35,051 nt of DNA from a bacterium (lineage in GTDB: Bacteria; CAYTYR01; UBA6262). Where the stretch lies: NCBI GenBank assembly GCA_028712895.1, contig JAQTPL010000022.1, forward strand, positions 1 through 35,051, read 5' to 3'. The notes under the pieces were generated by a model that searched no databases, was not told where the DNA came from, and saw only the letters and a program-made list of their open reading frames with translations. Shown here one piece after another: positions 246 through 30,092 of the stretch; within the stretch, counting starts at the first letter, position 1, and every line of letters begins with the position of its first letter. Made by a program: the position numbers and the translations under genes.

Positions 246-269
246 GCTTGATCCACCTCCTGCTTTTTA

Positions 270-292: not shown

Positions 293-293
293 A

Positions 294-312
294 GTCCCGA
301 CCACGTCGGGAC
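294..312. repeat. 8-bp inverted repeat (GTCCCGAC hairpin)
   Basis: GTCCCGAC and GTCGGGAC are perfect 8-bp arms with a 3-nt loop, immediately next to the previous palindrome. No T-run follows on the minus strand, so it is not a typical intrinsic terminator for either direction. It may be a structured 5' leader element of the recombinase gene or a small dispersed hairpin repeat. Confidence 0.55.
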
Positions 313-434
313 AAAAAACATCAAAATCGCCCGAAAAGACATTTTTTCTTTTGAATTATTCTCCCCCTTCAAGCAATTCGGTTTTGAAACCCCTAATTTT
401 CAAAATTTTCAAATAAATCAAAAGGATTCGCCCA

Positions 435-649
435 ATTCATGCTTAAATTCTTTATTACAACTTTCGGCTGACCTTATAATTCGTCTTTACAAAATCAAAT
501 AACCGCTGTGGATTGCCTGTGTGGAGGCAAGATGGCGAATAGCCGTTTCGGCGTAGCCCTGCGGGCTTGCGGCCTTACCCTCGCCAGTCTGCCGACAGGC
601 AGGCAACTATTCTTTTTTCTTTTTGGCGGCGGCAAAATCTTTAAAAGGT
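435..649 (+). repeat. Left arm of 215-bp inverted repeat (IRL)
   Basis: This stretch is the reverse complement of 15124-15338. Reading both by eye I see 2 mismatches in 215 positions (at 619 and 637 on this copy). Identity stops sharply at both ends, and the outer end is ATTCATGCTTAAATTC. It contains several GC-rich hairpins (for example CTGCCGACAGGCAG). Open frames through it are artefacts of the hairpin sequence. The two arms bracket all three defence operons. I see no clear target-site duplication just outside the arms. Confidence 0.93.
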
Positions 650-670
650 TATGCTCTTATCAAAAAACCA

Positions 671-741
671 ATTCGGCAAGCGCATAAAGGCCGTCGCGGA
701 ATACCGGTTTGATGGGATGAAGCCGGACGACTGCGATTGCC
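671..741 (+). repeat. Possible decayed copy (R0) of the cassette repeat
   Basis: The segment has scattered matches to the 3' half of the direct repeat seen at 9021, 11988 and 14913 and to what follows the 14913 copy: ATTCGGCAAGCGCA, then GCGGAATAC, then GATGAAGCC. Order and orientation are the same as in the other copies. It sits 15 nt beyond the stop of the last gene of operon A, comparable to the other copies. The alignment needs gaps and was made by eye. Confidence 0.4.
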
Positions 742-756
742 GCGAAATATTAAGAT

Positions 757-1398
757 TTATTCGTAATTTACAAAATAATTTCTCAAATTCTTAATCTTAT
801 CATTTCTTTTTATCAATGAATTATTTATTTCCAATAGCTTTTCCATCTGACCAATATTTTCATCGGCGGTTTGATAGTTTAGGTCTATATAATATTGAGG
901 ATTATTTATCTTATCTTTAGCTTTTAACTGATCTTTTCGCCATCCATCATGTTCTATGATGAAGCTAGTTTGTAAAAATACTTCTTTTTGTTCTTTTATT
1001 ATTATTGGCAACCATTTATTCTTGGCAATAGTATTCCCAAGACCTGTTAATATAGGAACAACAGCACACATTAATAAAATACCTATAGCAAGAATAAAGT
1101 AATAATGATGAGTCTTATATAGTCTATTTGGAATAGAATTAACATGAATTTCTTTTAGTACTTGAAGAAATAATCCAAATATTGCAAGTGAAGAAAATGT
1201 CAGGGTCATTGTGTTTTCGATAATACTTTGCTTGATAGCGAAAGGATTTTTACCCCAAAAGGCCGTATTTAACTCAGGTATATTAAATTTTGTAATAGCT
1301 GTGAAAATACCAACTCCACTAATTATAATTGTAAATAGATTTACAGTTATAGAATCAATCATTTTTAAGGTTTTATTGATTATTAATGCAACTTTCAT
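757..1398 (-). CDS. Membrane protein of unknown function, last gene of operon A
   Basis: The product is 213 residues. I place the start at the ATG at 1398 (MKVALIINK) because it forms an ATGA overlap with the TGA of the upstream helicase gene; a TTG at 1416 is less likely. Three hydrophobic stretches are visible: near the N-terminus (SITVNLFTIIISGVGIFTAI), around MTLTFSSLAIFGLFLQVL, and at YYFILAIGILLMCAVVPILT. The C-terminal ~80 residues are charged and probably cytoplasmic. I do not recognise a family. Its translational coupling to the Res subunit suggests it belongs to the restriction operon, perhaps as a membrane-acting accessory, but that is only context. Confidence 0.75.
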   Translation of the reverse strand: MKVALIINKTLKMIDSITVNLFTIIISGVGIFTAITKFNIPELNTAFWGKNPFAIKQSIIENTMTLTFSSLAIFGLFLQVLKEIHVNSIPNRLYKTHHYYFILAIGILLMCAVVPILTGLGNTIAKNKWLPIIIKEQKEVFLQTSFIIEHDGWRKDQLKAKDKINNPQYYIDLNYQTADENIGQMEKLLEINNSLIKRNDKIKNLRNYFVNYE

Positions 1399-3611
1399 AA
1401 AGATAATGTGTCCCAATTGTCCATATTATTTGTTAATTCATTGCTCTTTTTTGTAAAGTATATCCACCGACCATTGTAGTTACGAGAATCAGTATTAGTT
1501 ACAATACCGCCAAATATCTTTATGCCTTTCCTTCTCTGATCTTGAATATAGGAATAAAGTCCATCTACCTTCGGACCTGCAACTTGTCGAGTTAGCCCTG
1601 ACTTTGTATCGAAAAGTCCAATGGTCCCATCTTTCATACGGACAATAAAATCAACGTAAAATGGCTTAATATCGCCATTTTCTTTATAAGGCACTGCGAA
1701 GAAGACTGAATCTCTGTCGCCATTTTTAAACCACCAAGCGATTTTATTAGGTTTTTCTAGATAATTTATGAAAGCTGTTTCAAGTGCTGATCGACCATTA
1801 TTGTAAAACGGTTGCATAATCGCTTTTTTCTGATTTTCAGCTACGCTTTGCGAACCGAAGTTAATGCTCTCTGGTATATCCCATTTCTCATCATAATCAA
1901 GCTCTTTCTCCCTATCCGAAACGGTTTGTTGGTATTTTGTTTTAGCTTGATCAATAACATTAATAAAATGTTGCATATTCTGTTCGTGTAATACTAGTGC
2001 GATAATATCTTCCTGCACTTCTTCATATTTAATCTTTAAAGCACGATCAAAGAAATAATAAATTGCTTCTTTAAGTCTGCCAATTGATCTGTCTTCAGGG
2101 TGATATGGCGTAAGATTCTTTCTTACAAAATAGTCGAAATACTTCTGCAGATCAAACCCACTTAATGTAACCGCCTTGTCGCCAACTATTGTTGCTCCTA
2201 CTAATTCATCGATGCTCTCAGCTGTATAGTTGGAAATTAGTTTTAGACTAACACCTTTTGATTTCCTGTCAATTTTATGTATAAGGTCATATGAATCTGC
2301 TTCTTGCAAGAAATATTTAATAAATAAAGGTGACAACCTTGTTTTTTCACGATGCCTTTTTGAATGGCATGAAGATATATCCAAAGGTGAATAATCGCTC
2401 CGTCGTCTTGATGTATGAATCGTGATATAATCTCTGGCGATGTCTTCTTGGATTTCTATATCATCCAAATTCGTAAAAATATATCCGTAATTCAAAATTT
2501 CGTTCGTATAATGGCCGTAATCGGGATCAGGCATCCGCATAATCCTACCGATTGTCTGGATAGAAAAGACAATGCTATGCCAATCACGAAAAAGCACTAG
2601 TATATGAGCTCGGGGACAATCCCACCCTAAAGCTAAGGCCTGTTTGAAGATTAAAACATCCGCTTCATTATCAAATTTTGAAATATTTTCTAGATTTTCA
2701 TGGTGGCCGGAAAGATGTATAGCCAATTTGCCATTCTCTGTTGTGATCTTATGCTTATTTTTAAGGAGTGCTATTACTTTATCTTTAATCACATCTTCAA
2801 GAGATGTGTGGCGATCAGGCAGCTGCACAAGTACTAAAGGATTTATATATAGCTTTTCCTTTTCGTATGCATCTTTGAGAGCTTTCCTTTTTTTTAGTGC
2901 TAATTCAATTACTAATTCTTCGGACTGCTTACTTAATTGGCTCTTTATTTTTGTATCTTTAAGGATATTTTCAAGCTCAGGATTAAGGATAACGGCCTTC
3001 TTGATCATTCCCTCTGTTTTGACGTCTTCTAGTTGAACAGAAACAATCTCATCCGGGCTTTCAAGTACCGGAGTGGCGGAAACCTCAATTGTCAGTTTAG
3101 GCCCAATATCCCGGATTAGGTTTTGCGATATATCGCTTGTGGCGTGATGGTGGCTTTCATCTATGATAAGGATTATTGTTCGGCCTTCCTCCCTGGTATT
3201 AGCTATTATGTTTGATAAATTATTGTCATGCTCATTATCCCTTATATAAATATTGTTTTCTCTATTAATGCTCTCCCAATTAAAAAAAAGAATCTCATTT
3301 TGATCAATTCGCTTATCATCTAAGTCCTCAAAGAAGGAACAGCTAAGTGCCCTGTTCGGCTCATAATAGTGATCCAATTTATTCTTGCTCTGTTCGTGCA
3401 ACTGCCGTGGAGCAGTCCAAATAAAGGAAAGCTGAGATTTAACCTCTTTATCCTCACATAACTGCTTTAGAAACTCGGCCATCATTATAGTCTTGCCTGA
3501 GCCAGTGGGAGCTTTGAATATCAGTCTTTTATTATCTGCATAGCTAAAAAGCTTTTTTGCTTTTTTTAACAACTCATCGATAGCGTTTGTTTGATAGTTT
3601 TTAAGTCGCAT
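1395..3611 (-). CDS. res: Type III-like restriction subunit: SF2 helicase with C-terminal PD-(D/E)XK nuclease
   Basis: A 738-residue protein. Helicase motif I (APTGSGKT) is at residues 34-41, motif II is DESH at 151-154, and motif VI is QTIGRIMR near 355. The C-terminus carries D654 (YVDF) and D668-T-K670, the spacing of a PD-(D/E)XK nuclease, as in Res subunits of Type III restriction enzymes. In that family the Mod-Res complex recognises unmethylated sites, moves along DNA using ATP and cuts it. At 738 residues it is shorter than many Res proteins (often near 900-1000). The ATG at 3611 overlaps the TAA of the upstream mod gene (TAATG), so the two are translationally coupled. Confidence 0.88.
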   Translation of the reverse strand: MRLKNYQTNAIDELLKKAKKLFSYADNKRLIFKAPTGSGKTIMMAEFLKQLCEDKEVKSQLSFIWTAPRQLHEQSKNKLDHYYEPNRALSCSFFEDLDDKRIDQNEILFFNWESINRENNIYIRDNEHDNNLSNIIANTREEGRTIILIIDESHHHATSDISQNLIRDIGPKLTIEVSATPVLESPDEIVSVQLEDVKTEGMIKKAVILNPELENILKDTKIKSQLSKQSEELVIELALKKRKALKDAYEKEKLYINPLVLVQLPDRHTSLEDVIKDKVIALLKNKHKITTENGKLAIHLSGHHENLENISKFDNEADVLIFKQALALGWDCPRAHILVLFRDWHSIVFSIQTIGRIMRMPDPDYGHYTNEILNYGYIFTNLDDIEIQEDIARDYITIHTSRRRSDYSPLDISSCHSKRHREKTRLSPLFIKYFLQEADSYDLIHKIDRKSKGVSLKLISNYTAESIDELVGATIVGDKAVTLSGFDLQKYFDYFVRKNLTPYHPEDRSIGRLKEAIYYFFDRALKIKYEEVQEDIIALVLHEQNMQHFINVIDQAKTKYQQTVSDREKELDYDEKWDIPESINFGSQSVAENQKKAIMQPFYNNGRSALETAFINYLEKPNKIAWWFKNGDRDSVFFAVPYKENGDIKPFYVDFIVRMKDGTIGLFDTKSGLTRQVAGPKVDGLYSYIQDQRRKGIKIFGGIVTNTDSRNYNGRWIYFTKKSNELTNNMDNWDTLSL

Positions 3612-5287
3612 TATTTAAATATTCTCCTGTAAACTCGCAAAATAACTTCAGGGATAGGTGATATTTTAACTTTCTGCTTAACGTCTTCAAATTCATCCTC
3701 AAAGGAATCATCGCTAAGTGAGAAGATATAGATGCTGAATTTGCCCTTTAATTTTGCAATGGCTTCCTTAAAAGCTGGGATAGCCATCTGATCAAAGATT
3801 ATTCCAGTGTAGTGGTTGTTATTCTTGTAAATTTTAAACACTTTCTTATTCATCATCTTTTCAAAAGTGCCTTCTTTGATGCAGAGCATTGCCGTGGCTT
3901 TCTCAGTTAAGTTCTTTTTGTTTTTGTCGGTGGGATCGGCATTCACAAAGTCGGTGCGGAAATATTTTAGATTAGCAGGAATCCCTGTGATATAAGAATA
4001 ATCTTTATTTCCCTTTATAACTTGTTTAATTCGTGGATAACATACATCCTCGGCTATTTTGTTTTCATTATTAGTGCAAAGTATAAACCTTCGCTCTCCT
4101 TTATCTTCTTTATTAAGGAGTAAAACAGCATGCCCAGTTGTCCCAGAACCCGCAAAAAAGTCCAATACTATGCTATCTTTATATGATGCTATTTTGAGTG
4201 TGTCCAATACAGCATAAAGAGATTTTGGATAAGGGAAAATACCTCGCCGTTTAAATAACCTATCAAGCAATACAACTCCGTGACTTGAGGCATCATATCT
4301 TGGGTCGTACCAAAGGGTTTTTGGTTTTGTTCCTCCCACGATTTCTGGCCTTCTTTTTTTGAAAAGACGAATCTTTTCTTTCACACTTTTTACTAAAATA
4401 TCTGTTTTAATCCGTTCTAAAAAAGTTTCCTGTGACCATCTCCAAGTTTTTTCTTCACCCTTCTCATTTATTGGTAATATTTTAACAGCATCATCGGTTC
4501 TTTTAAGAGAGAGTGTTTTGCCATTCCAATAGATAGGATAAAATAAATTAGGTCTTGTATGCCGATCAGAATTATTTCCAGTTCTCATAAAAGATACAAT
4601 ACCATATCTCGAAATAGAATCTTTGTGCGGGAATTGTTCTAGCAATGATTCATCGTTAAATTCAAACTTCTTAATTTCTGCGAATTGTGCATTTTTTGCA
4701 TAAAACAGTGCATATTCGTGCATTGTTGCAAAATATCGATCGTCGTTCCTTCCTCTAGGGTTGTGAACGATCACAACTGTACCTAAACGATTATTTTCAC
4801 CAAAGATTTCATCCAGCAGCAAGCGACATGTGTGTATTTCATAATCATCAATTGTTAATACTAATATACCCTTAGGAGATAATAGTGATTTTGCTAGCTT
4901 TAGGCGGCGTTCAAGAAATGAAATAAATTTACTATGTTTAAAACTATCCTCTGCATCTACAATCTTATTATTATATCGCCAGCTTGCATTACCAGTATTA
5001 TAAGGAGGATCAATGTAAATAACATCAATTTTATCCTTATGGGTATAATTCAAAACCGATAAAGCATGATAATTGTCGCCTTCTATCAAAATGTTAGTCG
5101 GGCCGTGTGGATTTTCAGAAATCTCTTTTTTTTCGATATCCACCAATACTGGCAGTTTTGTTTTGCAAAGCTCCGCTACGTCTTCGGGTTTATCTTCCCA
5201 GACTAAGCCAAATTTCTTCCGCTTTTTCATGCGCTTCATTTCAGCTATCAGTTCTTCTTTGCTCCATTTTCCGTATTGCTCAGTCAT
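3611..5287 (-). CDS. mod: Type III-like DNA methyltransferase (Mod), beta-class amino-MTase
   Basis: The 558-residue product has the catalytic motif DPPYN at residues 93-97, within VIYIDPPYNTGN, and the later AdoMet-binding motif FAGSG at about 378-382, within VLDFFAGSGTTGHA. Catalytic before AdoMet motif is the order of beta-class N6-adenine/N4-cytosine methyltransferases, including Type III Mod. The central region would hold the target recognition domain. I chose ATG 5287 (MTEQYGKWSKEEL) because AGAGG lies just upstream; the open frame extends 13 codons further without a good ribosome site. The stop overlaps the start of res. In the family it methylates one strand of an asymmetric site and gives specificity to Res. 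Confidence 0.9.
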   Translation of the reverse strand: MTEQYGKWSKEELIAEMKRMKKRKKFGLVWEDKPEDVAELCKTKLPVLVDIEKKEISENPHGPTNILIEGDNYHALSVLNYTHKDKIDVIYIDPPYNTGNASWRYNNKIVDAEDSFKHSKFISFLERRLKLAKSLLSPKGILVLTIDDYEIHTCRLLLDEIFGENNRLGTVVIVHNPRGRNDDRYFATMHEYALFYAKNAQFAEIKKFEFNDESLLEQFPHKDSISRYGIVSFMRTGNNSDRHTRPNLFYPIYWNGKTLSLKRTDDAVKILPINEKGEEKTWRWSQETFLERIKTDILVKSVKEKIRLFKKRRPEIVGGTKPKTLWYDPRYDASSHGVVLLDRLFKRRGIFPYPKSLYAVLDTLKIASYKDSIVLDFFAGSGTTGHAVLLLNKEDKGERRFILCTNNENKIAEDVCYPRIKQVIKGNKDYSYITGIPANLKYFRTDFVNADPTDKNKKNLTEKATAMLCIKEGTFEKMMNKKVFKIYKNNNHYTGIIFDQMAIPAFKEAIAKLKGKFSIYIFSLSDDSFEDEFEDVKQKVKISPIPEVILRVYRRIFK

Positions 5288-5306
5288 TATAAACCTCTTT
5301 TTATTA

Positions 5307-6089
5307 TTACTTATTAAAATATTCAATTAAATCATATACTTTCTTACAATACGTAGAGAACAAAATTAAGTTAGCATATGCAACTTCTCTTGAAACTATT
5401 CTCCCAGTAGGATGCCCCACATCATTCCTATAATTTCTTATTAAAGTGAATATGCCATTTAAAATTGTTTCAAGGTCTTCCCTTATAGTATCAGGGAAAT
5501 TTGCTTTAATAGAATTTAGCTCATGATTTAATTTGTCAAAACGAGTTTTAATGAAATTAGTCTCCATTTTCTTCCTAAACGCTTCTTGAGCTCTTGTATC
5601 TATTATAGTATTTTGATAGGCTTCAGATAATAATATTAATGCTTTTTCAGAAGCACACCCTAACATTACCGTAGAAGCCATATAACATCCGCGCAAAAAT
5701 GTCTCCAGACTTTCAGTTACATAGGATATTATTGCCTCGTCTATATTAGGAATATTCATTCTTAATTTAGATAAATATTCCTCTGGGTCATATGGGATAA
5801 TTTCACTAGATGCAAGGCATTTACTACCATAATCAGTTATCTTGAACCATGGCCAGTTGGGATTCGAGGCATTCATTCCAAATACAATTATACCCTGAAC
5901 ATATAAGCCATGCATTATTTCTCTTATATTTTCTTCATCTCTATTATTAAAATCAGAAGTATTTTTAATATAACTATTTTGCATTGCTAGAGAAGCAACA
6001 CTGTTTCTTAGTGTAGCCCACTGATTCATTGTATTGTCTTTTAACGCTTCTAAAACCAAATGTCTTAGTATTTCATATTCTATAGTCAT
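5307..6089 (-). CDS. HEPN-type protein (RX4H motif), function unknown
   Basis: The product is 260 residues. The C-terminal half is helical and holds RNDVGH (in NYRNDVGHPTG), matching the R-X4-6-H motif of HEPN domains. HEPN proteins are often RNases in abortive-infection and toxin systems, or non-catalytic partners. The segment CASEKALILLSEA resembles the first helix region of DUF4145-like HEPN proteins. The N-terminal ~100 residues, with WPWFKITDYG, look like a winged-helix-type region (inference). It lies between the PHP-ATPase gene (37-nt gap) and mod (19-nt gap), all in one direction, so it is probably co-transcribed as an accessory effector or regulator. Family assignment rests on the motif and general look only. 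Confidence 0.7.
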   Translation of the reverse strand: MTIEYEILRHLVLEALKDNTMNQWATLRNSVASLAMQNSYIKNTSDFNNRDEENIREIMHGLYVQGIIVFGMNASNPNWPWFKITDYGSKCLASSEIIPYDPEEYLSKLRMNIPNIDEAIISYVTESLETFLRGCYMASTVMLGCASEKALILLSEAYQNTIIDTRAQEAFRKKMETNFIKTRFDKLNHELNSIKANFPDTIREDLETILNGIFTLIRNYRNDVGHPTGRIVSREVAYANLILFSTYCKKVYDLIEYFNK

Positions 6090-6126
6090 TTAGAATCCTT
6101 TATAGAAGGTTATGAATACTCTATTT

Positions 6127-8820
6127 TCAACTAATTGTCATGCCATACATTTTAGCACGAAGTAAAAAAGCTTCTCGAGCACCTTCTAAAATTGCACAAG
6201 TGGCTTCTCTAGTACTGGAATCATCTATCGAACCACGCGCAACGATCTTGCCATGGTCATTCATTGCCTTCATCACTATAATAAGTTCAGCATCACCAAG
6301 AACTGCTACATTAGGATTATGAGTTACAATGATAACCTGTCGGCGCTCCTTTACGCGGCGAAGCACAGGTACGAGCGTTTTATATATAAATTCTCCATCA
6401 AGGTTGTCTTCTGGTTGATCAATGATTAACGGATGATTACTATTGCACGAAAGCATAAGAGCGAGTAATACAGATTGCTGTTGTCCGAGTGATAGCTTGG
6501 CGAAGTCTCGTTGTAAATATTGGGTGCCACCCTTCCCATCTGGTATTTCTCGAGTTACCTGCAAACGTGGAAGATCAAATAATTCGGCTCGCTCAAGAGC
6601 AAACTTAATTGCTTGCTCACCGAGACGCTCGATAATAGAGAGCGCATCTTCACGTCTAAAAACGGCTACGTTTTCTGGTGTTTGTAGTGCGAGAATGGGA
6701 GTTGTGTCTTTGCGTTCAATTGCATCAATCAGAACAGGTATAGTTAAATGTTCAACCATCCGATTTGAGCGGACTTGTTGATTGGTCTTCCCACCCATAG
6801 GTTGGATAATCTGAGCTTCTGCGTCGGGTGAATATGCATTCCTCGTATATTTAAGGCTAACCAGAAGGTCCGAGAGTGCTTCTCGTAATGTAGTAGTTGC
6901 TAAGCGGGCGAAAGCATCACGTAGAGTGGCAACGCGCTCTCGTGCAGCCCATCTTTCCTTAAGAACGGCAGAGCGTTTCTTTCTCAATTCCTGCAAATGC
7001 GGTTTCCAGGTCATAAGGTTTTTAATATTTTGAGAGTGACTAGCTTCATCAGCAGCAAGCTTCGTAATATAGGACATATCAAAAGAGATCTTAAGTGCTT
7101 CAAGCTCACGTCTTTTTGCCTCAATTTTCTTTTGTGCTTCAGATTCTTTTATTTTCCAACTTGTTATTTGTTCAGAAACCACGTGTTCAAATGTGCTCAA
7201 TCCAGTCTTAATCTGAGTTTCAGCTTCAGAAACGCTCTTTTCAAAAGCAGCGGCACTATTTTGGATTGCTTGGAATTCGACTGCCCCAACTGTAAGATTA
7301 GCTGGCTCGGCAAGTGTGCGAATTGTTTCGGCAGCAGTTTTTGGGGTTAACCTGCCAATATTTCTTTTTGCGTCTTGTAAAGTAGTCATAATTTGTGTGC
7401 GTATTTCACGTTCAGTAGCAAGTTTGCGTTGTAGCTCAATCATTTCCTTAACGTCTGGTTTTTGCAATGCTGTAAGTTGCTGCTTAGTTGTAGCTAAAAG
7501 CCGTTCAAATTGAGGTATTTGTTGCACATTTTGCTCAGCCTTCTCAATCTCTGTTTGCAGTGTTAGAAGTTGTTCGCGTGTATTATTTTCGGCTATTATA
7601 GCTTCATTGAGATTAACGAATCGATCTAAATAATGCAGCAACGCAAGTGGATCTGTCTGAGCTTGGAAACTTATCTTTGCAGCCTCCCCTTGTCCAAAAC
7701 AATCTATCTCGAATAAACAAGGCCCCCCAACTGGGTTACTGATATTTTGCAATTCTCCATCTTTCGGACGGAATAGCGAATGCTTTTGCCCGGATTGATC
7801 TTGAAAAAATAAATAAAGTTCCTCAGGCCATGCTTCAGAGTCGACAACCTTGTTCATTTCGCTCGTGTTCCCTATAAGACAGCGCACAGCCTCAAAAGCA
7901 GTGGATTTACCAGTACCCCTTCCACCGATAATGCAGTTTAGATTAGGGCTAAAGTGAATTACTTGCTCATGTAAAAAACCACCGTCTATATGTAAACCTA
8001 TAACCCTTGGCACAGATTGAGGAATTAAATCCTCTAAACGCACGCGAGCATCAGCATCTGTTAGTGCTATGTATAGTGCTTCAAATGTTGGTGTATCCAT
8101 TTTATAACGCGTTACCTTACTAGCGCTCTGTGCATTATGTCCCAAAAATTCTAGTTCATGGGCATCTGAGTTAAGGATTCTTGCTATATTTTGTCTCAGA
8201 CCCAATTTTAATCGGGTAATGCGCTCTCTTCCAATCTTGGCTCTCTCTGGATCAGGATCGCCTTTAGAGTAGGAGATTTCCGAGGTTGCTTCCTTAAGTT
8301 CAATACCAAGCAAAGCCCCATGGCATAGCACATCATATTTATGCTGTGATGCTCCTGGGACTATGTGATCATACCCAGTAGGGGTGTCGATATGAGCTAA
8401 CACGCAAAAACCACCAAGCGTTTCGGTTATGTTCAAGCACTCCAAGATTGATTGCTGACATCGCGAAGTAGCTTGGCCTCGATCAACAATGGTAAGTTTA
8501 CCATAAAAGGTATTTAATATCTGAATCGAGGGAAAATAGCATAGTAAATGACCTTGAGAAGTAGAAAGTTCAATTCCAGGCACAACATAGAGCCCAGTAT
8601 TCGTTGCAGCTTTTTGGGCTACCTCAACATTACTAATTTCATTGTGATCGGTTATGGCTATAATTGTAAGATTTTCATGCAAAGCAGTTTTAACTATCTT
8701 CTCTGCTGTCATGGACTTATCATGTACATCGTGTGATGCTCCAAAGGAATGAATATGAAGATCGGCACGATAAAAACGAGCGCCCGTTGGTTGAGATAAT
8801 ACTTGATCGATAATTTCCAT
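6127..8820 (-). CDS. TrlF-like protein: PHP phosphoesterase domain fused to SMC/ABC-type ATPase
   Basis: An 897-residue protein. The N-terminal PHP domain shows its metal-binding motifs in order: HIHS (22-25), DHNE (58-61), PGIE (81-84), a histidine in LAHIDTP (143) and NSDAH (217-221). Then comes an SMC/RecN-like ATPase: Walker A GGRGTGKST (299-307), a long coiled-coil-rich middle (about 400-620), the ABC signature LSLGQQQ, and Walker B LIIDQPEDNLD near the C-terminus. This matches what databases call TrlF family AAA-like ATPases. PHP domains hydrolyse phosphoesters, so an ATP-gated nuclease acting on DNA or RNA is likely (inference). AAGGGG lies 8 nt before the ATG. It is the first gene of operon A, behind a promoter and a leader hairpin. 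Confidence 0.87.
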   Translation of the reverse strand: MEIIDQVLSQPTGARFYRADLHIHSFGASHDVHDKSMTAEKIVKTALHENLTIIAITDHNEISNVEVAQKAATNTGLYVVPGIELSTSQGHLLCYFPSIQILNTFYGKLTIVDRGQATSRCQQSILECLNITETLGGFCVLAHIDTPTGYDHIVPGASQHKYDVLCHGALLGIELKEATSEISYSKGDPDPERAKIGRERITRLKLGLRQNIARILNSDAHELEFLGHNAQSASKVTRYKMDTPTFEALYIALTDADARVRLEDLIPQSVPRVIGLHIDGGFLHEQVIHFSPNLNCIIGGRGTGKSTAFEAVRCLIGNTSEMNKVVDSEAWPEELYLFFQDQSGQKHSLFRPKDGELQNISNPVGGPCLFEIDCFGQGEAAKISFQAQTDPLALLHYLDRFVNLNEAIIAENNTREQLLTLQTEIEKAEQNVQQIPQFERLLATTKQQLTALQKPDVKEMIELQRKLATEREIRTQIMTTLQDAKRNIGRLTPKTAAETIRTLAEPANLTVGAVEFQAIQNSAAAFEKSVSEAETQIKTGLSTFEHVVSEQITSWKIKESEAQKKIEAKRRELEALKISFDMSYITKLAADEASHSQNIKNLMTWKPHLQELRKKRSAVLKERWAARERVATLRDAFARLATTTLREALSDLLVSLKYTRNAYSPDAEAQIIQPMGGKTNQQVRSNRMVEHLTIPVLIDAIERKDTTPILALQTPENVAVFRREDALSIIERLGEQAIKFALERAELFDLPRLQVTREIPDGKGGTQYLQRDFAKLSLGQQQSVLLALMLSCNSNHPLIIDQPEDNLDGEFIYKTLVPVLRRVKERRQVIIVTHNPNVAVLGDAELIIVMKAMNDHGKIVARGSIDDSSTREATCAILEGAREAFLLRAKMYGMTIS

Positions 8821-8851
8821 AAATGTAACCCCTTATTAACTCTTGTGACTA

Positions 8852-8880
8852 AAACAAAAAACTAGGGACCAAATCCCTAG
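8852..8880 (-). terminator. Terminator-like hairpin in the leader of operon A
   Basis: On the minus strand CTAGGGA and TCCCTAG pair perfectly (7 bp, loop of 5) and are followed at once by TTTTTTGTTTT. This is an intrinsic-terminator shape, yet it lies downstream of the operon A promoter and only about 30 nt before the first ATG (8820). It could stop leakage from the previous cassette or attenuate operon A itself. Confidence 0.7.
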
Positions 8881-8957
8881 CTCACTCTAAACACATTAAA
8901 TTACAAATGACTATGGATATCCAACATTAGTGGTAGCCTCCATAAAACCTTAATTGG

Positions 8958-8986
8958 CTTATAGCACTTTTTAAGTTAATAATCAA
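8958..8986 (-). promoter_or_regulatory. Sigma-70-type promoter of operon A
   Basis: Minus strand: TTGATT (8981-8986), a 17-nt spacer, then TATAAG (8958-8963). The same hexamers and spacing, plus flanking CCC before the -35 and CCAATT after the -10, occur upstream of operon B at 11925-11953, which strongly supports it. The transcript would begin near 8951, about 130 nt before the ATG of the PHP-ATPase. Confidence 0.78.
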
Positions 8987-9020
8987 GGGAAAACCCAATA
9001 GATGTAAATAATCCGCTATT

Positions 9021-9096
9021 TCGGGCATTTCCGGGGATTGTATCATAAAATGATACCATATAGGGGGAAGCTGGTTCGGAGCGCAGGTAGCGGAAT
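9021..9096 (+). repeat. Cassette direct repeat R1 (~75 bp)
   Basis: First clear copy of a repeat also found at 11988-12060 and 14913-14989, all in the same orientation. Conserved blocks are GGGCATTTCCGGGG, then TTGTATCATAAAAT, then GATACCATATAGGGGGAAGC and TGGTTCGGAGCGC. In this copy GTATCAT-AAA-ATGATAC is a palindrome. It starts 27 nt beyond the stop of the ATPase gene of operon B and lies upstream of the operon A promoter, so it sits exactly at the junction between two operons. It holds no gene. Confidence 0.92.
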
Positions 9097-9123
9097 ATTG
9101 AAAGTGAGGGCCATTTTAAATGA

Positions 9124-10827
9124 CTATATGATTTTAAACAATTTATCCGATTGAGATAGAGTTAATATTTCGTATTGCTTAACATCTATATCATTTGGCA
9201 ATTTATCTTTTAAAACTGGCAAAACAAATTGGCAATTAATTTCACTTACTATCTCCGTTAAAAGGTTGCTTATTTGATTATCATGAATATTTTCTATCTG
9301 GTCTTGTAAAATGAAATGCAAACATTCAATACCCAATGAGTCTGCAAATTGAATATATGCTAAATCGAAAGCAGCGATTTGCCCTTTCTTTTTGCCTGTC
9401 CCCAAATTCCCGGCAAGACTACTAATATTTAATTCGTATCCCTTATCGTTTTTATCGGTGCTTAATACAAATTGTTCACCATACAATCTTAGTGATATTG
9501 TTGAAAAATACTTATTAAACTCAGCTACTCGCTCCTGAATCAAGGTGTCTTTAGAAAAAATGCCTTTATTAATCTCTTCTAGCTCCGCTTCAATTGATTT
9601 AACCTTATCTATGGAGCTCTCCCAGAGTCTTTTAAGCTCTTCTAAATTGCCCTTCTTTTCATATGCTCTATTAAGCTCGGAAATAATCTGTTGGAGCTCT
9701 TCTGCTACTTTAGTTTTAACCAGCCGAGCAGTGATGTTTTTCTCAGTGATTAACAGTTCACTTATTTTTCGTTTAATACCGTTTAAGGCTATCTCTAGTT
9801 CTGGCAATTCCTGAGTTATATATCTAATCTTTTCTTTAACCATTTGATTATGGAACGCCAGAGTTTCTTCGTAGGATTTTTGGATATCAGGCACTAACGA
9901 TTTTGCTTCTTTATATAGCCTGCTAATTTGCTGCGTATCAATCTTCGCTAAATCCTTTTCAAGATCATCCTTACTTTCAAGAATCAATTCCTTCCTCATT
10001 TCCAGCCGACTGAGTTCGGTGGAATGTTTATTTATATCAGATTTAGTTTGGTTCAATACAGATAGCTCTTGATTAAAGTTTTCATTTAGATTAAATTTAT
10101 TTTTCCTTTCTTCAAATTCTTCTATGCTCCGGTTAATAACCAATAACGATTGGTTAATTTGTGACAAGTTACTTTCTTTTCTTAGCCTTTTCTGTAAACC
10201 CTCTTCAATCTTTTTCAGAGAGATTAATTCTTGTTTCCTGTCTGATGAGTCCAAACTTATGCCAAGCCAAAACAAATACAAAGCTTCGTATTCTTCGGGT
10301 TTTGTTGTTGCATGAAGAACCTTAATGGTATGTAATAGCCTGTTTTTTTCATCCCTAATGTTTTTAGAAATAATTTGCCTAAATGAAGGCTTTTCATGCT
10401 CTGAATGAAAGATAAGCTCTTTCAATTTTCCTGTAAAATCCGCATCTTTTTTTAAGTTCTCACCATCAATTTCCTGTATCTTATGTTTCCTTTTAAGGAA
10501 ATTCCTCCTAATTACTATCTCAGTTGAATTTAAGTCTTCTAAAGATTCTTTAAGGATTAAAGTGATTAGAATATTTTTGTTTTTTAGAAATTGCTCTATT
10601 TGAGAATTGCTTTTGCTTTTAAACTCAGGGTCTTGATATATGTTCTTGCCATCGCCGCCAAGACAATAGTCAACCAGTCTGAGCACCGTTGTCTTGCCGA
10701 CATTATTCCCAGATTCTTTCTTATCAGCTGTTTTTGTTTCATCAATAATGAGATTTATTCCTTTATGAAAAGTAATTTTCCTGATTAATGTGCCATTATT
10801 TTCCATAATAAGGTCTTTTAAAAACAT
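9124..10827 (-). CDS. ABC-3C system ATPase component (DUF2326-like)
   Basis: A 567-residue SMC/RecF-like ATPase. Walker A is GNNVGKTT (residues 40-47) in a strand-loop-helix context, with LVDYCLGG after it, typical of DUF2326 proteins. The middle (about 190-420) is coiled coil rich in E, K, L and S. The C-terminal part contains NISSLAGNLGTGKKKGQIAAF and HFILQDQIENIHDNQ in the positions of the ABC signature and Walker B regions; the signature is unconventional, as in this family. The ATG at 10827 overlaps the end of the small upstream gene by 10 nt. In ABC-3C systems this ATPase is thought to sense foreign nucleic acid and license the effector. Confidence 0.86.
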   Translation of the reverse strand: MFLKDLIMENNGTLIRKITFHKGINLIIDETKTADKKESGNNVGKTTVLRLVDYCLGGDGKNIYQDPEFKSKSNSQIEQFLKNKNILITLILKESLEDLNSTEIVIRRNFLKRKHKIQEIDGENLKKDADFTGKLKELIFHSEHEKPSFRQIISKNIRDEKNRLLHTIKVLHATTKPEEYEALYLFWLGISLDSSDRKQELISLKKIEEGLQKRLRKESNLSQINQSLLVINRSIEEFEERKNKFNLNENFNQELSVLNQTKSDINKHSTELSRLEMRKELILESKDDLEKDLAKIDTQQISRLYKEAKSLVPDIQKSYEETLAFHNQMVKEKIRYITQELPELEIALNGIKRKISELLITEKNITARLVKTKVAEELQQIISELNRAYEKKGNLEELKRLWESSIDKVKSIEAELEEINKGIFSKDTLIQERVAEFNKYFSTISLRLYGEQFVLSTDKNDKGYELNISSLAGNLGTGKKKGQIAAFDLAYIQFADSLGIECLHFILQDQIENIHDNQISNLLTEIVSEINCQFVLPVLKDKLPNDIDVKQYEILTLSQSDKLFKII

Positions 10828-11051
10828 TTTACGATATCACCTTCTGCCGTATTGATAATTCCCAGCAAATAAAGCCAGTCTAATGTTAAAACAAATAAAT
10901 TCATCGAAACTCTTTTCTTCTCGTTCAATGATTGAAAAGCGTCAAATAATTCCACTTTGTCTTTAGGGGAATTTCTCAGTATTTCAATGACTTGAGCTCC
11001 TAAATAATAAATTTCTCGTTCCGGATTAATATCTTTGTTAATAATCATCAT
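10818..11051 (-). CDS. ABC-3C middle component
   Basis: A 77-residue, mostly helical protein with YYLGAQVIEILRNSPKDKVE followed by LTLDWLYLLGIIN. In three-component ABC systems a small protein of this size and shape sits between effector and ATPase genes, and this middle component is predicted to bridge the two. Its ATG overlaps the TGA of the effector gene (ATGA at 11051-11048) and its end overlaps the ATPase start, so all three are translationally coupled. The assignment relies on position, size and general sequence look; I cannot name the exact middle-component subtype. Confidence 0.78.
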   Translation of the reverse strand: MMIINKDINPEREIYYLGAQVIEILRNSPKDKVELFDAFQSLNEKKRVSMNLFVLTLDWLYLLGIINTAEGDIVKCF

Positions 11052-11860
11052 TTTGGCTCTTCCAATATTTTACATCTCATAAAAGCATCAACTAGGATTA
11101 TCGAAATCCCAAAATTTATGTCTTCTTCATAACTTTGGGAGCCCGCCCCAATTAATACTAGCAATTCATCTTCAACATCTTCAATGATATTGTCAGCATT
11201 TTGCCTGACAATATCCATCGGGCTTGCGGAATCTCCGACGTATTTACCCTTAATTTTAAGATACACTGTCCTAATATTCCTTAAAAGTTTATCCTTCTTG
11301 AATGACCCTTGTATTTCCAGCTCGTTATATAGTTCATTTATTTTCGAGTGAAATATTTTTTGTTCTTCAATCAAGACCTTATTTCTTTTAACTAAATTAT
11401 AAGTAATTTTATCATCAATATTAAATGCTGTGAAAGAGCCGCAACTTGGTTCAACACCTTCAAAGTCAATATTAGAAATAGCATCAATTGCAACCTTTAA
11501 TAATGAATGTTTTGTTATTAACTTATTATGCAATAATTTGCTTTCGTGATCTCTTTTCCACTCTTTAAGCATCGCGACTGGATATTTACTTTCATTTGCA
11601 ATGTTGTCAATGATGCTATGATGCTCATCACAAAGTAAAATTAAGTTATTAAAATGTCTTCTATCATCATCGGTCATGTTTGGATTATATCTAGGGCCTT
11701 TCTCACTAGCGGCCTCTATATGACATATTTTGCTGATTATTGTTTCGCCGTCTTTTGCAATAAGCGGTCGCGTACAATCCGGCTCAGCGCACTGATTACC
11801 ATGTAACGTATCAAGCCTTCGTAAAGTTCTTCGAGTATATTCTCTAGCTTTTTTGCCCAT
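11048..11860 (-). CDS. ABC-3C effector with N-terminal HNH nuclease domain
   Basis: A 270-residue protein. The N-terminus is an HNH/treble-clef nuclease: C24-x4-C29 (CAEPDC), the HIEA histidine at 47, NNLILL at 71-76 and C77-x2-H80-H81 (CDEHH). This gives zinc ligands plus catalytic histidine and asparagine. After about residue 100 comes a helical C-terminal half with no known catalytic motif; in this class it is the domain that couples the effector to the other two components. The expected role is DNA cleavage when the ATPase is triggered. It is the first gene of operon B. The ribosome site before its ATG is weak. Confidence 0.85.
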   Translation of the reverse strand: MGKKAREYTRRTLRRLDTLHGNQCAEPDCTRPLIAKDGETIISKICHIEAASEKGPRYNPNMTDDDRRHFNNLILLCDEHHSIIDNIANESKYPVAMLKEWKRDHESKLLHNKLITKHSLLKVAIDAISNIDFEGVEPSCGSFTAFNIDDKITYNLVKRNKVLIEEQKIFHSKINELYNELEIQGSFKKDKLLRNIRTVYLKIKGKYVGDSASPMDIVRQNADNIIEDVEDELLVLIGAGSQSYEEDINFGISIILVDAFMRCKILEEPK

Positions 11861-11903
11861 AAGGTAATTATCATCCGATACTAAATATTTAAATCATTTA
11901 ATT

Positions 11904-11937
11904 AAAGTGATACCCATAAATTGGCTTATATCACTTT
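11904..11937. promoter_or_regulatory. Possible operator: 9-bp inverted repeat over the operon B start site
   Basis: AAAGTGATA (11904-11912) and TATCACTTT (11929-11937) are perfect 9-bp arms 16 nt apart. Together they cover most of the -10 box and the predicted transcription start of operon B. A dimeric repressor bound here would block transcription. No regulator gene is visible in the cassette, so the protein involved is unknown. Confidence 0.5.
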
Positions 11938-11953
11938 TTTTGATATGAATCAA
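11925..11953 (-). promoter_or_regulatory. Sigma-70-type promoter of operon B
   Basis: Minus strand: TTGATT (11948-11953), 17-nt spacer, TATAAG (11925-11930). Hexamers and spacing are identical to the operon A promoter, while the spacers differ in sequence, which argues for selection on the promoter elements. Transcription would start near 11918, about 58 nt before the HNH effector ATG. Confidence 0.78.
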
Positions 11954-11987
11954 GGGATTTATCTATCAAAGGGGAATATGCATAATT

Positions 11988-12060
11988 TCGGGCATTTCCG
12001 GGGCTTGTATCATAAAATAGATACCATATAGGGGGAAGCTGGTTCGGAGCGCCGATAGCG
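11988..12060 (+). repeat. Cassette direct repeat R2 (~73 bp)
   Basis: Same blocks as R1, with GATACCATATAGGGGGAAGC and TGGTTCGGAGCGC identical. Differences are small (GCTTGT for GATTGT, one inserted A before GATACC, CCGATAGCG at the end). It lies 37 nt beyond the stop of the last gene of operon C and upstream of the operon B promoter. This copy has lost the perfect palindrome of R1. Confidence 0.92.
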
Positions 12061-12097
12061 AAAGCGGACTCTAACTATTTTTGCTGAGGAATAGATA

Positions 12098-12331
12098 TTA
12101 CTTCTTTTCAGAAGGTTTGTTTCCAGGAGGAGCAATTGGTGTCGTAATTACCGCTGGTGTCGGTATACCTTTCCTGATATCAGTTTTTGGCTCAATCGCG
12201 GCACTCGAAACAATAATATTTGAAGCTTTGGGCATTACGATGCCATTTTTAAGTTCCACCTGTTTATTATTTAAGATTGGATTTGTTGTTACTTTGGGGG
12301 TCACTATACCCGCAGTTTTCTTGATCGCCAT
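12098..12331 (-). CDS. Small proline-rich protein, last gene of the ubiquitin-like operon
   Basis: A 77-residue protein rich in P, T, I and K, with a loosely repeated pattern (GIVTPKV, GIVMPKA, GIPTPAV). No hydrophobic segment or known domain. It is supported as a real gene by a strong ribosome site: AAGGAG at 12339-12344, 7 nt before the ATG. Its first 65 nt overlap the 3' end of the upstream membrane-protein gene in another frame. The low-complexity sequence suggests a disordered partner or adaptor. An open frame on the opposite strand covers the same stretch and I take it as the shadow. Function unknown. Confidence 0.62.
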   Translation of the reverse strand: MAIKKTAGIVTPKVTTNPILNNKQVELKNGIVMPKASNIIVSSAAIEPKTDIRKGIPTPAVITTPIAPPGNKPSEKK

Positions 12332-12785
12332 TTGAGTGCTCCTTTATAGAAGAATAGTTAAAAGCCGAAAACCAAATAATAAAACCTAGCCCAACAGCAA
12401 AAATAATATAAGATGCCATGTTCAAATGAAGCGTAAGAGTATCAACTTTATTTGGATGATTAGAGGACTCATTATTATTAAATGCTTTATCAATTATTTC
12501 AATTTTCTTTAAGCAATTATGTTGGCTCGATAAGAACGAAGCAAGTGTTATAAGAATGCTTAGGCCGAACATAGCCCATGCTGTGAATAACAGCCATTTA
12601 GCGTTTCCTGTCGTTGGAACAATATCCTTTATGAATGTTATTGAAATAGCAAATGCTCCAGCTGAAAGAGTTAATATAGTTTTATCGAATGATAGAGATC
12701 CCTGAGTAAGCGAATTGGTAAAAAGTTCTCTCTCTTTTAAATATAACTCTTGACGATTACCATTATTTTTTATTGGTTGATTCAT
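12267..12785 (-). CDS. Three-TM membrane protein of the ubiquitin-like operon, putative effector
   Basis: A 172-residue protein starting at ATG 12785 (MNQPIKNNGN), 5 nt after the E1 stop, with AGGAG inside the end of the E1 gene. A longer frame starting at 12845 lies inside the E1 gene and is unlikely. A charged N-terminus is followed by SLSFDKTILTLSAGAFAIS leading into TM1 (about 34-52), TM2 (64-87, WLLFTAWAMFGLSILITL) and TM3 (122-141, YIIFAVGLGFIIWFSAF), with a polar, Asn/Ser-rich tail. The layout recalls SLATT-like small-TM effectors that accompany bacterial immune systems, but I cannot confirm the family. Co-directional tight packing ties it to the conjugation genes. Confidence 0.75.
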   Translation of the reverse strand: MNQPIKNNGNRQELYLKERELFTNSLTQGSLSFDKTILTLSAGAFAISITFIKDIVPTTGNAKWLLFTAWAMFGLSILITLASFLSSQHNCLKKIEIIDKAFNNNESSNHPNKVDTLTLHLNMASYIIFAVGLGFIIWFSAFNYSSIKEHSNGDQENCGYSDPQSNNKSNLK

Positions 12786-12790
12786 ATTAT

Positions 12791-13612
12791 CTATAATCTC
12801 CTGTAACCCGGATCCCCTGTTTGTTCTAAGGGGAAATGCGTACATTTACGAACTTTTAAATGTTCAAGGCGCACATGAGGGATTATGGTTCCATCATTTC
12901 CCCTATATGACATATATGCTATAACCGGTGAGGTTTTTGTCCACCCCGTCAAAATGTCTATTGCAAAACCAACGGCGGTAGAAGCTAATACACCGTTAGC
13001 CCATACTACCTGGGGTCGCCCACCTGCTGCACCATAATTAGAAGCTTCACGTGCAAGATTAGCCTCACTTAAAAAATTAATACATCTCATACATGGTCCA
13101 CCAGGCATGGATACAATAACTTGGCCTGCCATCCCAAAACAGTTATCCCTATCTTTTGATTCATGGACATCCATGCCGATGTCAATATAAGGTATAAGAT
13201 ATCGCCTTGCAAAATCTTCAATTTCTCTCCGTTGCGCAAATGTGTCAACACACCCAAATATAATATCACACGCTCTTAGTGGTGCAGATCTAGTCTGCCA
13301 TTTGGCCTTGTAAGACTCTATATGAGCGCTATGTTCCAAACCCAGAATCACTCTTCTAGCGACATTTATCTTTGGCATTCTTTTCTTAGCATCGTTTTCG
13401 GTCGCTCCAACTAAACGGTTGAGATTTACGTGTTTTACAATATCGGGATCGAAAAGGATGTAGTTTTCAAATCCAATATGGGATAATTGCTGGACTGTAT
13501 GAGAGCCACCTCCGCCCAGTCCTAATACCCCAACTGTGCATTTCTCTATTATGCTCTGAGCTTCCTTGCCTAGGAATGATTGCCTTGAATAACGGCCAAC
13601 GCTCATAATCAT
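12791..13612 (-). CDS. E1/ThiF-like adenylyltransferase (BilD-like)
   Basis: A 273-residue product. The ATP-binding loop is GLGGGGS at residues 31-37 of the Rossmann fold; further on is DPDIVKHVNLNRLVG, the usual acidic-strand plus N-x-N-R motif of ThiF/MoeB/E1 enzymes. A CMRC motif gives one zinc-type cysteine pair. E1-like enzymes adenylate the C-terminus of a ubiquitin-like protein and pass it on as a thioester. Cysteines outside the pair (for example in DNCFG) could be the acceptor, but this cannot be decided here. The start is ATG 13612, in an ATGA overlap with the JAB gene stop; a TTG at 13618 is the alternative. Confidence 0.88.
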   Translation of the reverse strand: MIMSVGRYSRQSFLGKEAQSIIEKCTVGVLGLGGGGSHTVQQLSHIGFENYILFDPDIVKHVNLNRLVGATENDAKKRMPKINVARRVILGLEHSAHIESYKAKWQTRSAPLRACDIIFGCVDTFAQRREIEDFARRYLIPYIDIGMDVHESKDRDNCFGMAGQVIVSMPGGPCMRCINFLSEANLAREASNYGAAGGRPQVVWANGVLASTAVGFAIDILTGWTKTSPVIAYMSYRGNDGTIIPHVRLEHLKVRKCTHFPLEQTGDPGYRRL

Positions 13613-14109
13613 CGCCAACTAAAAAATTGCATTGGCCAACCTACAATTGAAATTCTAGCTGCAGAAGTTGGAACTCTTTTTTTAGGTAGCCAAATCTTTG
13701 CGGCGCAATTATTTTTATTAAATACCAATGCGCCGTGAGCAAGCCCAGGTGCGACTGCTTGGAGGCTTGGTATAAGGCGAGCAATTTCCCTTAGGTCTAT
13801 ACTGCTAAACGCTGGTATTGCCCCATATTCATGTAAATGTACATGGAACACCCCGAGAGAATCGGTTAATGATATCTGCATTACTTGCCTTATTGCGTCG
13901 GAATTTATGCACGCTCCAACCCGAGGATTATTGATATAGTTATTATCAGCCACAGACTGATATTTTGATATTAAGATTAGTGCCGTTTTGGTAATAGTCA
14001 ACTTCCCTAATATAAAACCAATTCTTTCTGCAGCATAGGCATGCGGCCGCATCAAGTCCTTAATGATAGTATTTAAAATAACTTTTGGTATTCTAATATT
14101 AATATTCAT
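13609..14109 (-). CDS. JAB/JAMM-family peptidase (BilC-like)
   Basis: A 166-residue protein with the JAMM metalloprotease pattern: E29 in AERIGFILGK, the histidine cluster HVHLH at 89-93, and S102-x2-D105 (SSID). The histidine-to-aspartate spacing is one or more residues longer than the usual HxHx10D. JAB peptidases in bacterial ubiquitin-like operons remove the Ubl from targets or trim its C-terminus. I use ATG 14109 (MNINIRIPKV) because it forms an ATGA overlap with the E2 stop; the open frame reaches 14190 inside the E2 gene. Order in the operon is Ubl, E2, JAB, E1, the same as bilABCD. Confidence 0.85.
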   Translation of the reverse strand: MNINIRIPKVILNTIIKDLMRPHAYAAERIGFILGKLTITKTALILISKYQSVADNNYINNPRVGACINSDAIRQVMQISLTDSLGVFHVHLHEYGAIPAFSSIDLREIARLIPSLQAVAPGLAHGALVFNKNNCAAKIWLPKKRVPTSAARISIVGWPMQFFSWR

Positions 14110-14444
14110 CGAAGAGCCGCCAAATGAGCTGAGACCATCTGTGCCAGGCGCAATCCTGGTCTTATAACTTTCCATGAATAAGCATGCCATGTTTTGTCAA
14201 GAATACGCACATCCTGACCGTTCCAGTTAAGAGTTTTAGGCGATTTCACCTTTTGTGCGAAAAAGAGGCGTGATGGATATCCATCACGTTGAACCGGACA
14301 AAGAATTACATCAACAATTGCTGGATCGCAATTTGGTGGCATTGCTAACTTAGGGATTAACAGATATTCAATTCCCCCTTCTTCGGCAAGCATTACATCT
14401 GGGGATAGTTTTTTCAACTCTGAAATCTGATCTTCCGGAAACAT
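14106..14444 (-). CDS. E2-like protein of the prokaryotic E2 family E type (BilB-like)
   Basis: A 112-residue protein. The central stretch AMPPNCDPAIVDVILCPV and the GYPSRLFFA motif, followed by the C-terminal WHAYSWKVIRPGLR and a closing helix, follow the layout of prokaryotic E2 family E (the fold has a YP turn and an RPG/WRP-like C-terminal motif). Two cysteines are candidates for the thioester site, C39 (NCD) and C49 (ILC); which is used cannot be told. AGGAG lies 5-6 nt before the ATG, inside the end of the Ubl gene, and the stop overlaps the JAB start. Its likely job is to take the Ubl from E1 and transfer it to target lysines. Confidence 0.8.
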   Translation of the reverse strand: MFPEDQISELKKLSPDVMLAEEGGIEYLLIPKLAMPPNCDPAIVDVILCPVQRDGYPSRLFFAQKVKSPKTLNWNGQDVRILDKTWHAYSWKVIRPGLRLAQMVSAHLAALR

Positions 14445-14452
14445 CTCTACTC

Positions 14453-14698
14453 CTATGAAGCACTGCTGTCTTTCGGATGGCTGACAAATATTTCCCCACC
14501 TTTAATAGTCACGGCTCCGTTGTCAGCTATGGGTGTTAGAACCCCATTAATAACTTGTTCCAGGTCATCAGTAGGTGAAACTCCACCCACAGTTTTTATT
14601 TCCGAAACAGTTTGGTGGCCACGATGTATTTGCTTAGGAACTCCGTTAACAGTTATGCTTACAAACTCGCCAGTCTGAGGGTGCTCTTTTTTTTCCAT
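14453..14698 (-). CDS. Ubiquitin-like modifier, single multiubiquitin-type domain (BilA-like)
   Basis: An 81-residue protein. VSITVNGVPKQIHRGHQTV is the first beta-hairpin and helix start of the multiubiquitin-type domain, and AVTIKGGEIFVSHP is its last strand. It therefore has one beta-grasp domain, whereas described BilA proteins have two in tandem. The C-terminus is SHPKDSSAS and lacks a terminal Gly-Gly, so conjugation would need trimming, another C-terminal residue, or a non-covalent role. I chose ATG 14698 because AGGAGG sits 6 nt upstream (14705-14710); an in-frame ATG at 14734 is less well placed. First gene of operon C. Confidence 0.83.
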   Translation of the reverse strand: MEKKEHPQTGEFVSITVNGVPKQIHRGHQTVSEIKTVGGVSPTDDLEQVINGVLTPIADNGAVTIKGGEIFVSHPKDSSAS

Positions 14699-14736
14699 TA
14701 AATGCCTCCTAGGTCTAGATTGAATATCTTCCATAT

Positions 14737-14765
14737 AAACGAAACCCAAGCTCAGAGGCTTGGGC
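14737..14765 (-). terminator. Terminator-like hairpin in the leader of operon C
   Basis: On the minus strand CCCAAGC and GCTTGGG pair over 7 bp with a 6-nt loop, followed by TTTCGTTT. It lies after the operon C promoter and about 40 nt before the Ubl ATG, the same placement as the hairpin of operon A. It may attenuate the operon or insulate it from read-through. The T-run is interrupted, so strength is uncertain. Confidence 0.58.
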
Positions 14766-14841
14766 TAGTCAAACAATATCAATTGCTGCAACAATTTTAA
14801 CTGCTCATTATATTACGAATTAAGACCTCTTCCTATTTTAT

Positions 14842-14870
14842 CTTGTACTCTTTTTGCTGTAAAAAGTCAA
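14842..14870 (-). promoter_or_regulatory. Sigma-70-type promoter of operon C
   Basis: Minus strand: TTGACT (14865-14870), 17-nt spacer, TACAAG (14842-14847). The layout matches the promoters of operons A and B (TTGAyT-N17-TAyAAG). The leader from the predicted start (near 14835) to the Ubl ATG is about 135 nt. The -10 box is weaker than in A and B; an overlapping ATAAAAT just downstream is an alternative. Confidence 0.62.
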
Positions 14871-14912
14871 GCAAATAATGAGAAGGCTAAAAGGGTGGAA
14901 TATAGTCTGTTT

Positions 14913-14989
14913 TTGGGCATTTCCGGGGCTTGTATAATAAAATAGATACCATATAGGGGGAAGCTGGTTCGGAGCGCAGGTAGCGGAAT
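14913..14989 (+). repeat. Cassette direct repeat R3 (~77 bp)
   Basis: Same repeat as R1 and R2, with the ATACCATATAGGGGGAAGCT block and GGTTCGGAGCGCAGGTAGCG shared with R1. It differs by TATAATAA for TATCATAA. It lies about 43 nt upstream of the operon C promoter. Beyond it there is no fourth operon but a hairpin-rich stretch and then the right inverted repeat, so R3 may mark the edge of the cassette array. Confidence 0.92.
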
Positions 14990-15123: not shown

Positions 15124-15338
15124 ACCTTTTAAAGAATTTGCCGCCGCCAAAAATAAAAAAGAATAGTTGCCTGCCTGTCGGCAGACTGGCGAGGGTAAGG
15201 CCGCAAGCCCGCAGGGCTACGCCGAAACGGCTATTCGCCATCTTGCCTCCACACAGGCAATCCACAGCGGTTATTTGATTTTGTAAAGACGAATTATAAG
15301 GTCAGCCGAAAGTTGTAATAAAGAATTTAAGCATGAAT
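15124..15338 (-). repeat. Right arm of 215-bp inverted repeat (IRR)
   Basis: Reverse complement of 435-649. Its outer end, at 15338, matches the outer end of the left arm, so the two arms face each other across the island. It contains GGCCGCAAGCCCGC at 15199 onwards, a block also seen alone at 20312-20339. From here to the end of the pump gene the sequence returns to backbone type. Confidence 0.93.
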
Positions 15339-30084: not shown

Positions 30085-30092
30085 TCAAAAAA

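Follow-up and report, generated by a model that had tools for sequence, protein, structure and literature searches.

The stretch of DNA analysed here (the window, 35,051 nucleotides) raises the question of what brought three unrelated defence operons together between copies of one direct repeat, and what moves them. As an explanation of the whole, we consider it probable that the operons are the swappable cargo of a mobile island at miaB that encodes a large serine recombinase (LSR).

Three defence operons and a direct repeat

The operons and the repeats (R1 to R3) are arranged in the window as follows.

757..8820, minus strand: operon A, with a 219-aa protein, a ResIII helicase, a type III-like Mod methyltransferase, a weak HEPN_Apea match and a TrlF/Ppl-type PHP-SMC ATPase
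8952..9096, plus strand: R1 block, the 78-bp repeat (9018-9096) and a left extension common to R2, with the palindrome GTATCATAAAATGATAC
9124..11860, minus strand: operon B, ABC-3C type, with a DUF2326 protein (PDC-M68B) and a CTD10 protein (PDC-M68A)
11919..12063, plus strand: R2 block, the 78-bp repeat (11986-12063) and its left extension
12095..14749, minus strand: operon C, Bil-like, with the four genes named below and two further ORFs
12791-13618, minus strand: operon C, ThiF-family E1, by profile
13609-14190, minus strand: operon C, JAB-like protein, by reading
14106-14444, minus strand: operon C, E2-like protein, by reading
14453-14749, minus strand: operon C, ubiquitin-like protein, by reading
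14911..14988, plus strand: R3, right cargo boundary, whose right part runs into the conserved right end of the island

PADLOC and Pfam matches place several unrelated anti-phage systems next to one another, as in a defence island. The operon identities given in the initial annotation (Mod/Res-TrlF-HEPN, ABC-3C and Bil-like) are essentially right, those within operon C partly by reading. The cargo is AT-rich, with a GC content of 33-40% against 45-48% in the flanks.

R1 to R3 had been described as near-identical repeats in the same orientation, and comparison bears this out. Pairwise, 73-74 of 78-79 positions are identical (92-94% identity, same strand), and a 24-bp core of R occurs exactly three times where shuffled sequences predict 0.00 occurrences. 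The homology between R1 and R2 reaches left to 8952 and 11919, over about 145 bp with small gaps, which is about 66 bp beyond R itself. A genome search found no R beyond these three copies; since R is restricted to the island, it is not the ordinary dispersed repeat for which it might have been taken. Neither R nor the right end of the island had a match in plasmids, phages or IMG/VR, and Rfam returned nothing meaningful, either for the whole window at gathering scores or around R3 at a permissive threshold.

The repeats were also said to lie 15-40 nt past the stop codons of the operons. R1 and R2 do lie 28-35 bp beyond the stop codon of a neighbouring operon, but since the three operons are read from the minus strand, every R precedes one of them on its promoter side, 126-198 bp upstream of the first start codon.

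A decayed fourth copy of R (R0) had been proposed at 671-741. Its local score of 21, against a shuffle maximum of 25, is within chance, and the signal is weak (p ~0.01) at a lenient gapped score; R0 is not supported as a copy of R. The region is instead a separate repeat, which we call L.

693..751, plus strand: L repeat (the former R0), left cargo boundary, not a clear copy of R

L is found at the same place in the sister genome G003, where it is duplicated around an AIPR gene (25202-25267 and 27341-27405).

The array lies in an LSR island at miaB

Absent from the initial annotation were an LSR at the left edge of the window, a 99% inverted repeat (435-649 and 15124-15338) and an attachment site in miaB. 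The corresponding features are listed below, G000 being the genome of the window.

1..245, minus strand: N-terminal part of the LSR, at least 81 residues (Resolvase/Recombinase/Zn-ribbon), the remaining 481 aa being on contig G000:C34
G000:C34:29512-29547: site A, attL core, in the order LSR arm P' - core - rest of miaB
314..470, minus strand: site B, P' arm and core, an inverted 157-bp copy of the LSR 3' end and the miaB 5' codons, 100% identical to the attL copy G000:C34:29512-29668
314-434, minus strand: site B, P' arm, part of the inverted attP
435..470, minus strand: site B, core, the miaB 5' codons ATGCTTAAATTCTTTATTACAACTTTCGGCTG
471..649, minus strand: site B, Q arm, which with the core forms one arm of a 215-bp inverted repeat
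15124..15302, plus strand: Q arm adjoining attR, 99% identical (inverted) to the site B Q arm
15303..15338, plus strand: site C, attR core, the displaced original miaB 5' end and right edge of the island, in the order arm Q - core - host miaB start

The LSR gene is split over two contigs, and the window and the end of G000:C34 overlap by about 59 bp with one mismatch. The part in the window is 94% identical to the orthologue in G003, on which the Pfam domains PF00239, PF07508 and PF13408 were found. At its 3' end the LSR gene overlaps the start of miaB, recognised by its MiaB domains. The 36-bp core codes for the first residues of miaB and is a direct repeat at attL and attR, and attR retains a truncated miaB start. 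The locus therefore has what marks an LSR island: an LSR with Resolvase, Recombinase and zinc-ribbon domains at one end, and direct-repeat att sites at both ends with a rebuilt target gene and a displaced fragment. The island measures about 16.7 kb.

Two relatives, G050 and G002, have a miaB 5' end at attL that differs from the host version at attR, with the switch at GG(C/T)TG, as recombination between attP and attB predicts. In G004, a third species of the genus, the contig (L042, G004:C10) ends at 13746, exactly at the miaB attachment core, which suggests an island or mixed strains there too. Neither an island circle nor an empty site was observed; the search for an uninterrupted miaB in relatives of G020 matched only dispersed repeats. 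The LSR had no match in IMG/VR, and a 19-bp P' motif matched 10 unrelated contigs there, all lacking the LSR.

Several observations concern the surroundings of the island. RNase R lies to its right in both G000 (window 20423-22384) and G002 (L041 723-2711); in G000, acrB and outer-membrane efflux genes (15448-20191) stand between the two, and these are missing there in G002. In the ORF at 18518-20191, an outer membrane efflux protein is fused with a regulator domain of the PadR type. Farther along the window, 30088-31462 is a tandem duplication of two genes of about 192 aa (30150-30728 and 30887-31462; DNA 71-74% identical), each preceded by the same hairpin (30088-30129 and 30815-30856). A second, unrelated LSR is encoded elsewhere in G000 (L105 12500-15374, G000:C55); its operon also encodes an HTH protein and a protein of 319 aa, and the motif TATCATAA lies just upstream (12462, minus strand). 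G020 and G021 (L080-L094) have a dispersed repeat of about 60 bp that is common, often forms inverted pairs and also occurs to the right of the G020 island.

The island contains an inverted attP

The core and Q arm of site B are 99% identical to site C over 215 bp. Together with the identity of its P' arm and core to site A, this gives the island the order miaB - core - P' - LSR - (P' core Q, inverted) - cargo - Q - core - flank. As judged from its two arms, the segment P'-core-Q at 314-649 is an intact attP in inverted orientation.

An inverted copy of the LSR 3' end and the miaB 5' codons was found upstream of the LSR in all testable islands with an intact LSR (7/7), from several phyla, and at none of nine other LSR loci, whose LSRs are 25-34% identical. 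Wherever the contig runs past this copy it joins a Q-type arm (G000, G003, G050, L049 and L074), which identifies it as attP in these five islands; the contigs of L048 and L050 end within it. Its inner boundary falls at the same LSR codon (AAAAACATCAAAATCGCC), even in islands with an LSR protein as little as 55% identical. The P' arms are 93-100% identical within one island and 54-72% identical between islands, a pattern that points to concerted evolution.

That the internal site is merely an old duplication or an assembly artefact is very unlikely. The idea draws on the several relatives in which the site is found only at the end of a contig or not far from it (L048, L049, L050 and L074). However, the site is internal in G000, G003 and G020, is followed by 125 bp of Q in G050 and has diverged (93%) in G003, and the constancy of its inner boundary between distant LSRs also speaks against such an origin.

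Site B splits the islands into a recombinase compartment and a cargo compartment. The LSR faces miaB in every island that shows both, which argues against free inversion around site B. The site may provide homology through which islands exchange parts, or equip the circle with a second site for integration. It is also possible that the second, inverted attP plays a functional role by keeping the arms of the two compartments identical, so that the recombinase and cargo halves could invert, or be swapped between islands, independently, as a two-slot system for exchanging defence genes. We put this forward tentatively and well short of an even chance. To our knowledge, from general background and a literature search, no known architecture of serine integrases includes a spare attP that is conserved and inverted.

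Related islands carry different cargo

The sister genome G003 (same genus; Elusimicrobia UBA6262) has the same island in miaB. The left end is 93% identical to window 1-751, the right end 97% identical to 14937-15264 and the chromosomal flank 83-87% identical. Its cargo consists of an AIPR/AbiU-type gene between the two L repeats, followed by an operon of methyltransferase, HEAT, PIN, BrxD-like ATPase and methyltransferase genes. Only the right half of R is present, with homology beginning at TCATAAAATAGATACC, so that the junction breaks inside R. The same island ends at the same site, with wholly different defence cargo between L and R, support a modular cargo. L and R are the innermost conserved sequences, and the exchanged cargo therefore lies between them. 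The island boundaries, the conserved architecture and the turnover of cargo between species are, at the level of sequence, apparent in these comparisons.

Islands were also found beyond the genus. In G002, from another genus (fen_1175), the LSR is 90% identical and miaB 71%, which indicates horizontal transfer. Scanning a genome collection, and also 44 genomes from a single phylum, yielded further islands in L048, L049 and L050 (Auribacterota), G050 (L073), G025 (L074) and G020 (L075), with LSRs 55-71% identical. L048 is the only one of them in which miaB does not follow the LSR: its contig, of 3.6 kb, stops within the LSR. G020 has both compartments and the whole frame on one 61-kb contig, with Q arms 96-97% identical around a SoFic-like gene, although the LSR gene there is interrupted and attL has lost its P' arm.

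Relatives have one extra gene between site B and the LSR, and G000 and G003 have none. This gene is of the TrlF/Ppl type in L049 and L074, is HerA-like in G050, has a weak match to a TIR effector in L048 and is of no named type in L050 and G020. The L050 gene (548-2857) encodes 769 aa without a Pfam or PADLOC match; several relatives have defence-type genes in this position, and it is a candidate new defence gene.

The cores at sites A, B and C are of two kinds, carrying the miaB 5' end of the element or that of the host. In G050, A and B are from the element and C from the host, and in G002 A is element-type and C host-type. B is element-type in both G003 and G020, together with a host-type A in G003 and with host-type A and C in G020. 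All three are alike in G000. On the simplest reading, the island would have arrived with element-type ends, and conversion among A, B and C would have followed.

Origin of the R repeats

The copies of R may stem from exchange between related islands, or between tandem copies, through homology or microhomology, accompanied by partial deletion; no enzyme specific to R would be involved. The islands move between species and have long identical arms in common, R1 and R2 end at almost the same point (GCGGAA/GCGAAA), and L ends in a similar string, all consistent with such events. On the other side, 78 bp is little sequence for homologous recombination to act on, and it is at the palindrome that the G003 homology breaks off. 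We give this origin close to an even chance. Homologous recombination between islands had been named at the outset as the alternative to exchange by an enzyme; this, or illegitimate recombination, accounts for the R copies equally well.

A more doubtful proposal is that R is a site-specific recombination site in its own right, comparable to the direct repeats by which composite SCC regions are divided, at which operons would enter singly by means of an LSR acting in trans. R is present at each junction, and the homology between G003 and G000 breaks inside its core TCATAA (the TATCATAA core). R1 also has TATCATAA with an inverted ATGATA, the structure described for SCC/ECC attR and attECC (PMC6222049), and this combination is rare: 144 kb, in which 0.6 would be expected, contain 2, and both of these are in R. 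However, the motif comparison was post hoc, and R does not match the published SCC repeat GAA[AG][CG][TA]TATCATAA[GA] (PMC4723332), as R1 and R2 have TATCATAA without the 5' part and R3 has an A in place of the essential C (TATAATAA). With the CcrB profile the LSR reaches 222 bits, far below the cut-off of 900, and no recombinase is linked to R. Four copies of R are known, the three here and the half-copy in G003; the L-to-R compartment with this R occurs in only two genomes, and repeated insertion at R thus rests on three copies. Of the modular cassette array in the initial annotation, the modularity is supported; a dedicated enzyme that exchanges cassettes at R would be conjecture.

R could also be a shared promoter or operator block, repeated through common regulation. 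Its distance from the first genes of operons A, B and C and its palindrome would suit this role, but no promoter-like pair stands out (counts equal those in shuffles), the identity extends farther than an operator needs, and the G003 operon next to R does without its left half. We consider this role unlikely. Overall, homologous or microhomology recombination is slightly favoured over both site-specific insertion at R and a promoter or operator block, and the visible engine of mobility would be the island LSR acting at miaB, not at R.

Comparison with known systems

The SCCmec and ECC cassette chromosomes (ccr LSRs, rlmH; PMC6222049, PMC4723332) are likewise LSR-driven islands at an RNA-modification gene, with direct-repeat partitions and very variable cargo, and their att motif TATCATAA resembles the core of R. 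The island described here lies in the 5' end of miaB, whereas theirs lie at the 3' end of rlmH, which was not found among the loci retrieved. It also differs in its inverted internal attP and two compartments, and no ccrA, ccrB or ccrC was found above the curated cut-off.

The ssrA genomic islands of Dehalococcoides (DsiB serine recombinase; PMC3146451) similarly combine a conserved integration module by attL with an interchangeable cargo module, direct-repeat arrays and an att repeat embedded in the recombinase gene. They differ in their ssrA target and their six-gene module, and the main text of that paper does not contain the word 'inverted'. Islands in the 5' end of dusA (PMC4482086) are also inserted in the 5' end of a tRNA-modification gene, but use another integrase family and another target; that paper mentions mobile elements in rimO (MiaB-like) and does not mention miaB.

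Integron gene cassettes resemble the array in having modular genes with direct repeats between them, but here the units are whole operons and the repeat is unrelated. No integron integrase (tyrosine recombinase) was found among the island proteins scanned with Pfam. Phage serine integrases (e.g. that of Anoxybacillus phage A403, 33% identity) are of the same enzyme class and follow the same attP/attB logic; the island differs from them in its inverted second attP, and no phage genes were seen.

A model for defence gene turnover at miaB

We propose that the island-encoded LSR would insert the island at a conserved TFG-C motif in the miaB 5' end. The island would supply a replacement miaB 5' end within its attP arm, and the original 5' end of the host would stay at attR. 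Compartment 1, bounded by inverted P' arms, would comprise the LSR and, in relatives, one further gene (defence-type in several). Compartment 2, bounded by inverted Q arms and parted from the first by site B, would comprise the defence array. Within it, operons would be replaced as units between L and R, and R1 and R2 would be extra copies of the right boundary, left by the addition of operons at that end. Site B and the arms would serve recombination between or within islands.

The repeats and operons do form an array, its cargo is modular, and it is framed by an LSR island in miaB rather than by a system resembling an integron. What is unusual in this frame is the inverted internal attP, which from the islands compared is both conserved and homogenised.

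Defence genes form clusters and are mobile, but sequences rarely reveal how one set of them replaces another at a fixed locus. In this case, a single site, a single recombinase family and a conserved frame with different defence systems in different hosts make this turnover directly readable, and the conserved inverted spare attP leads to a specific, testable prediction on inversion or cargo exchange.
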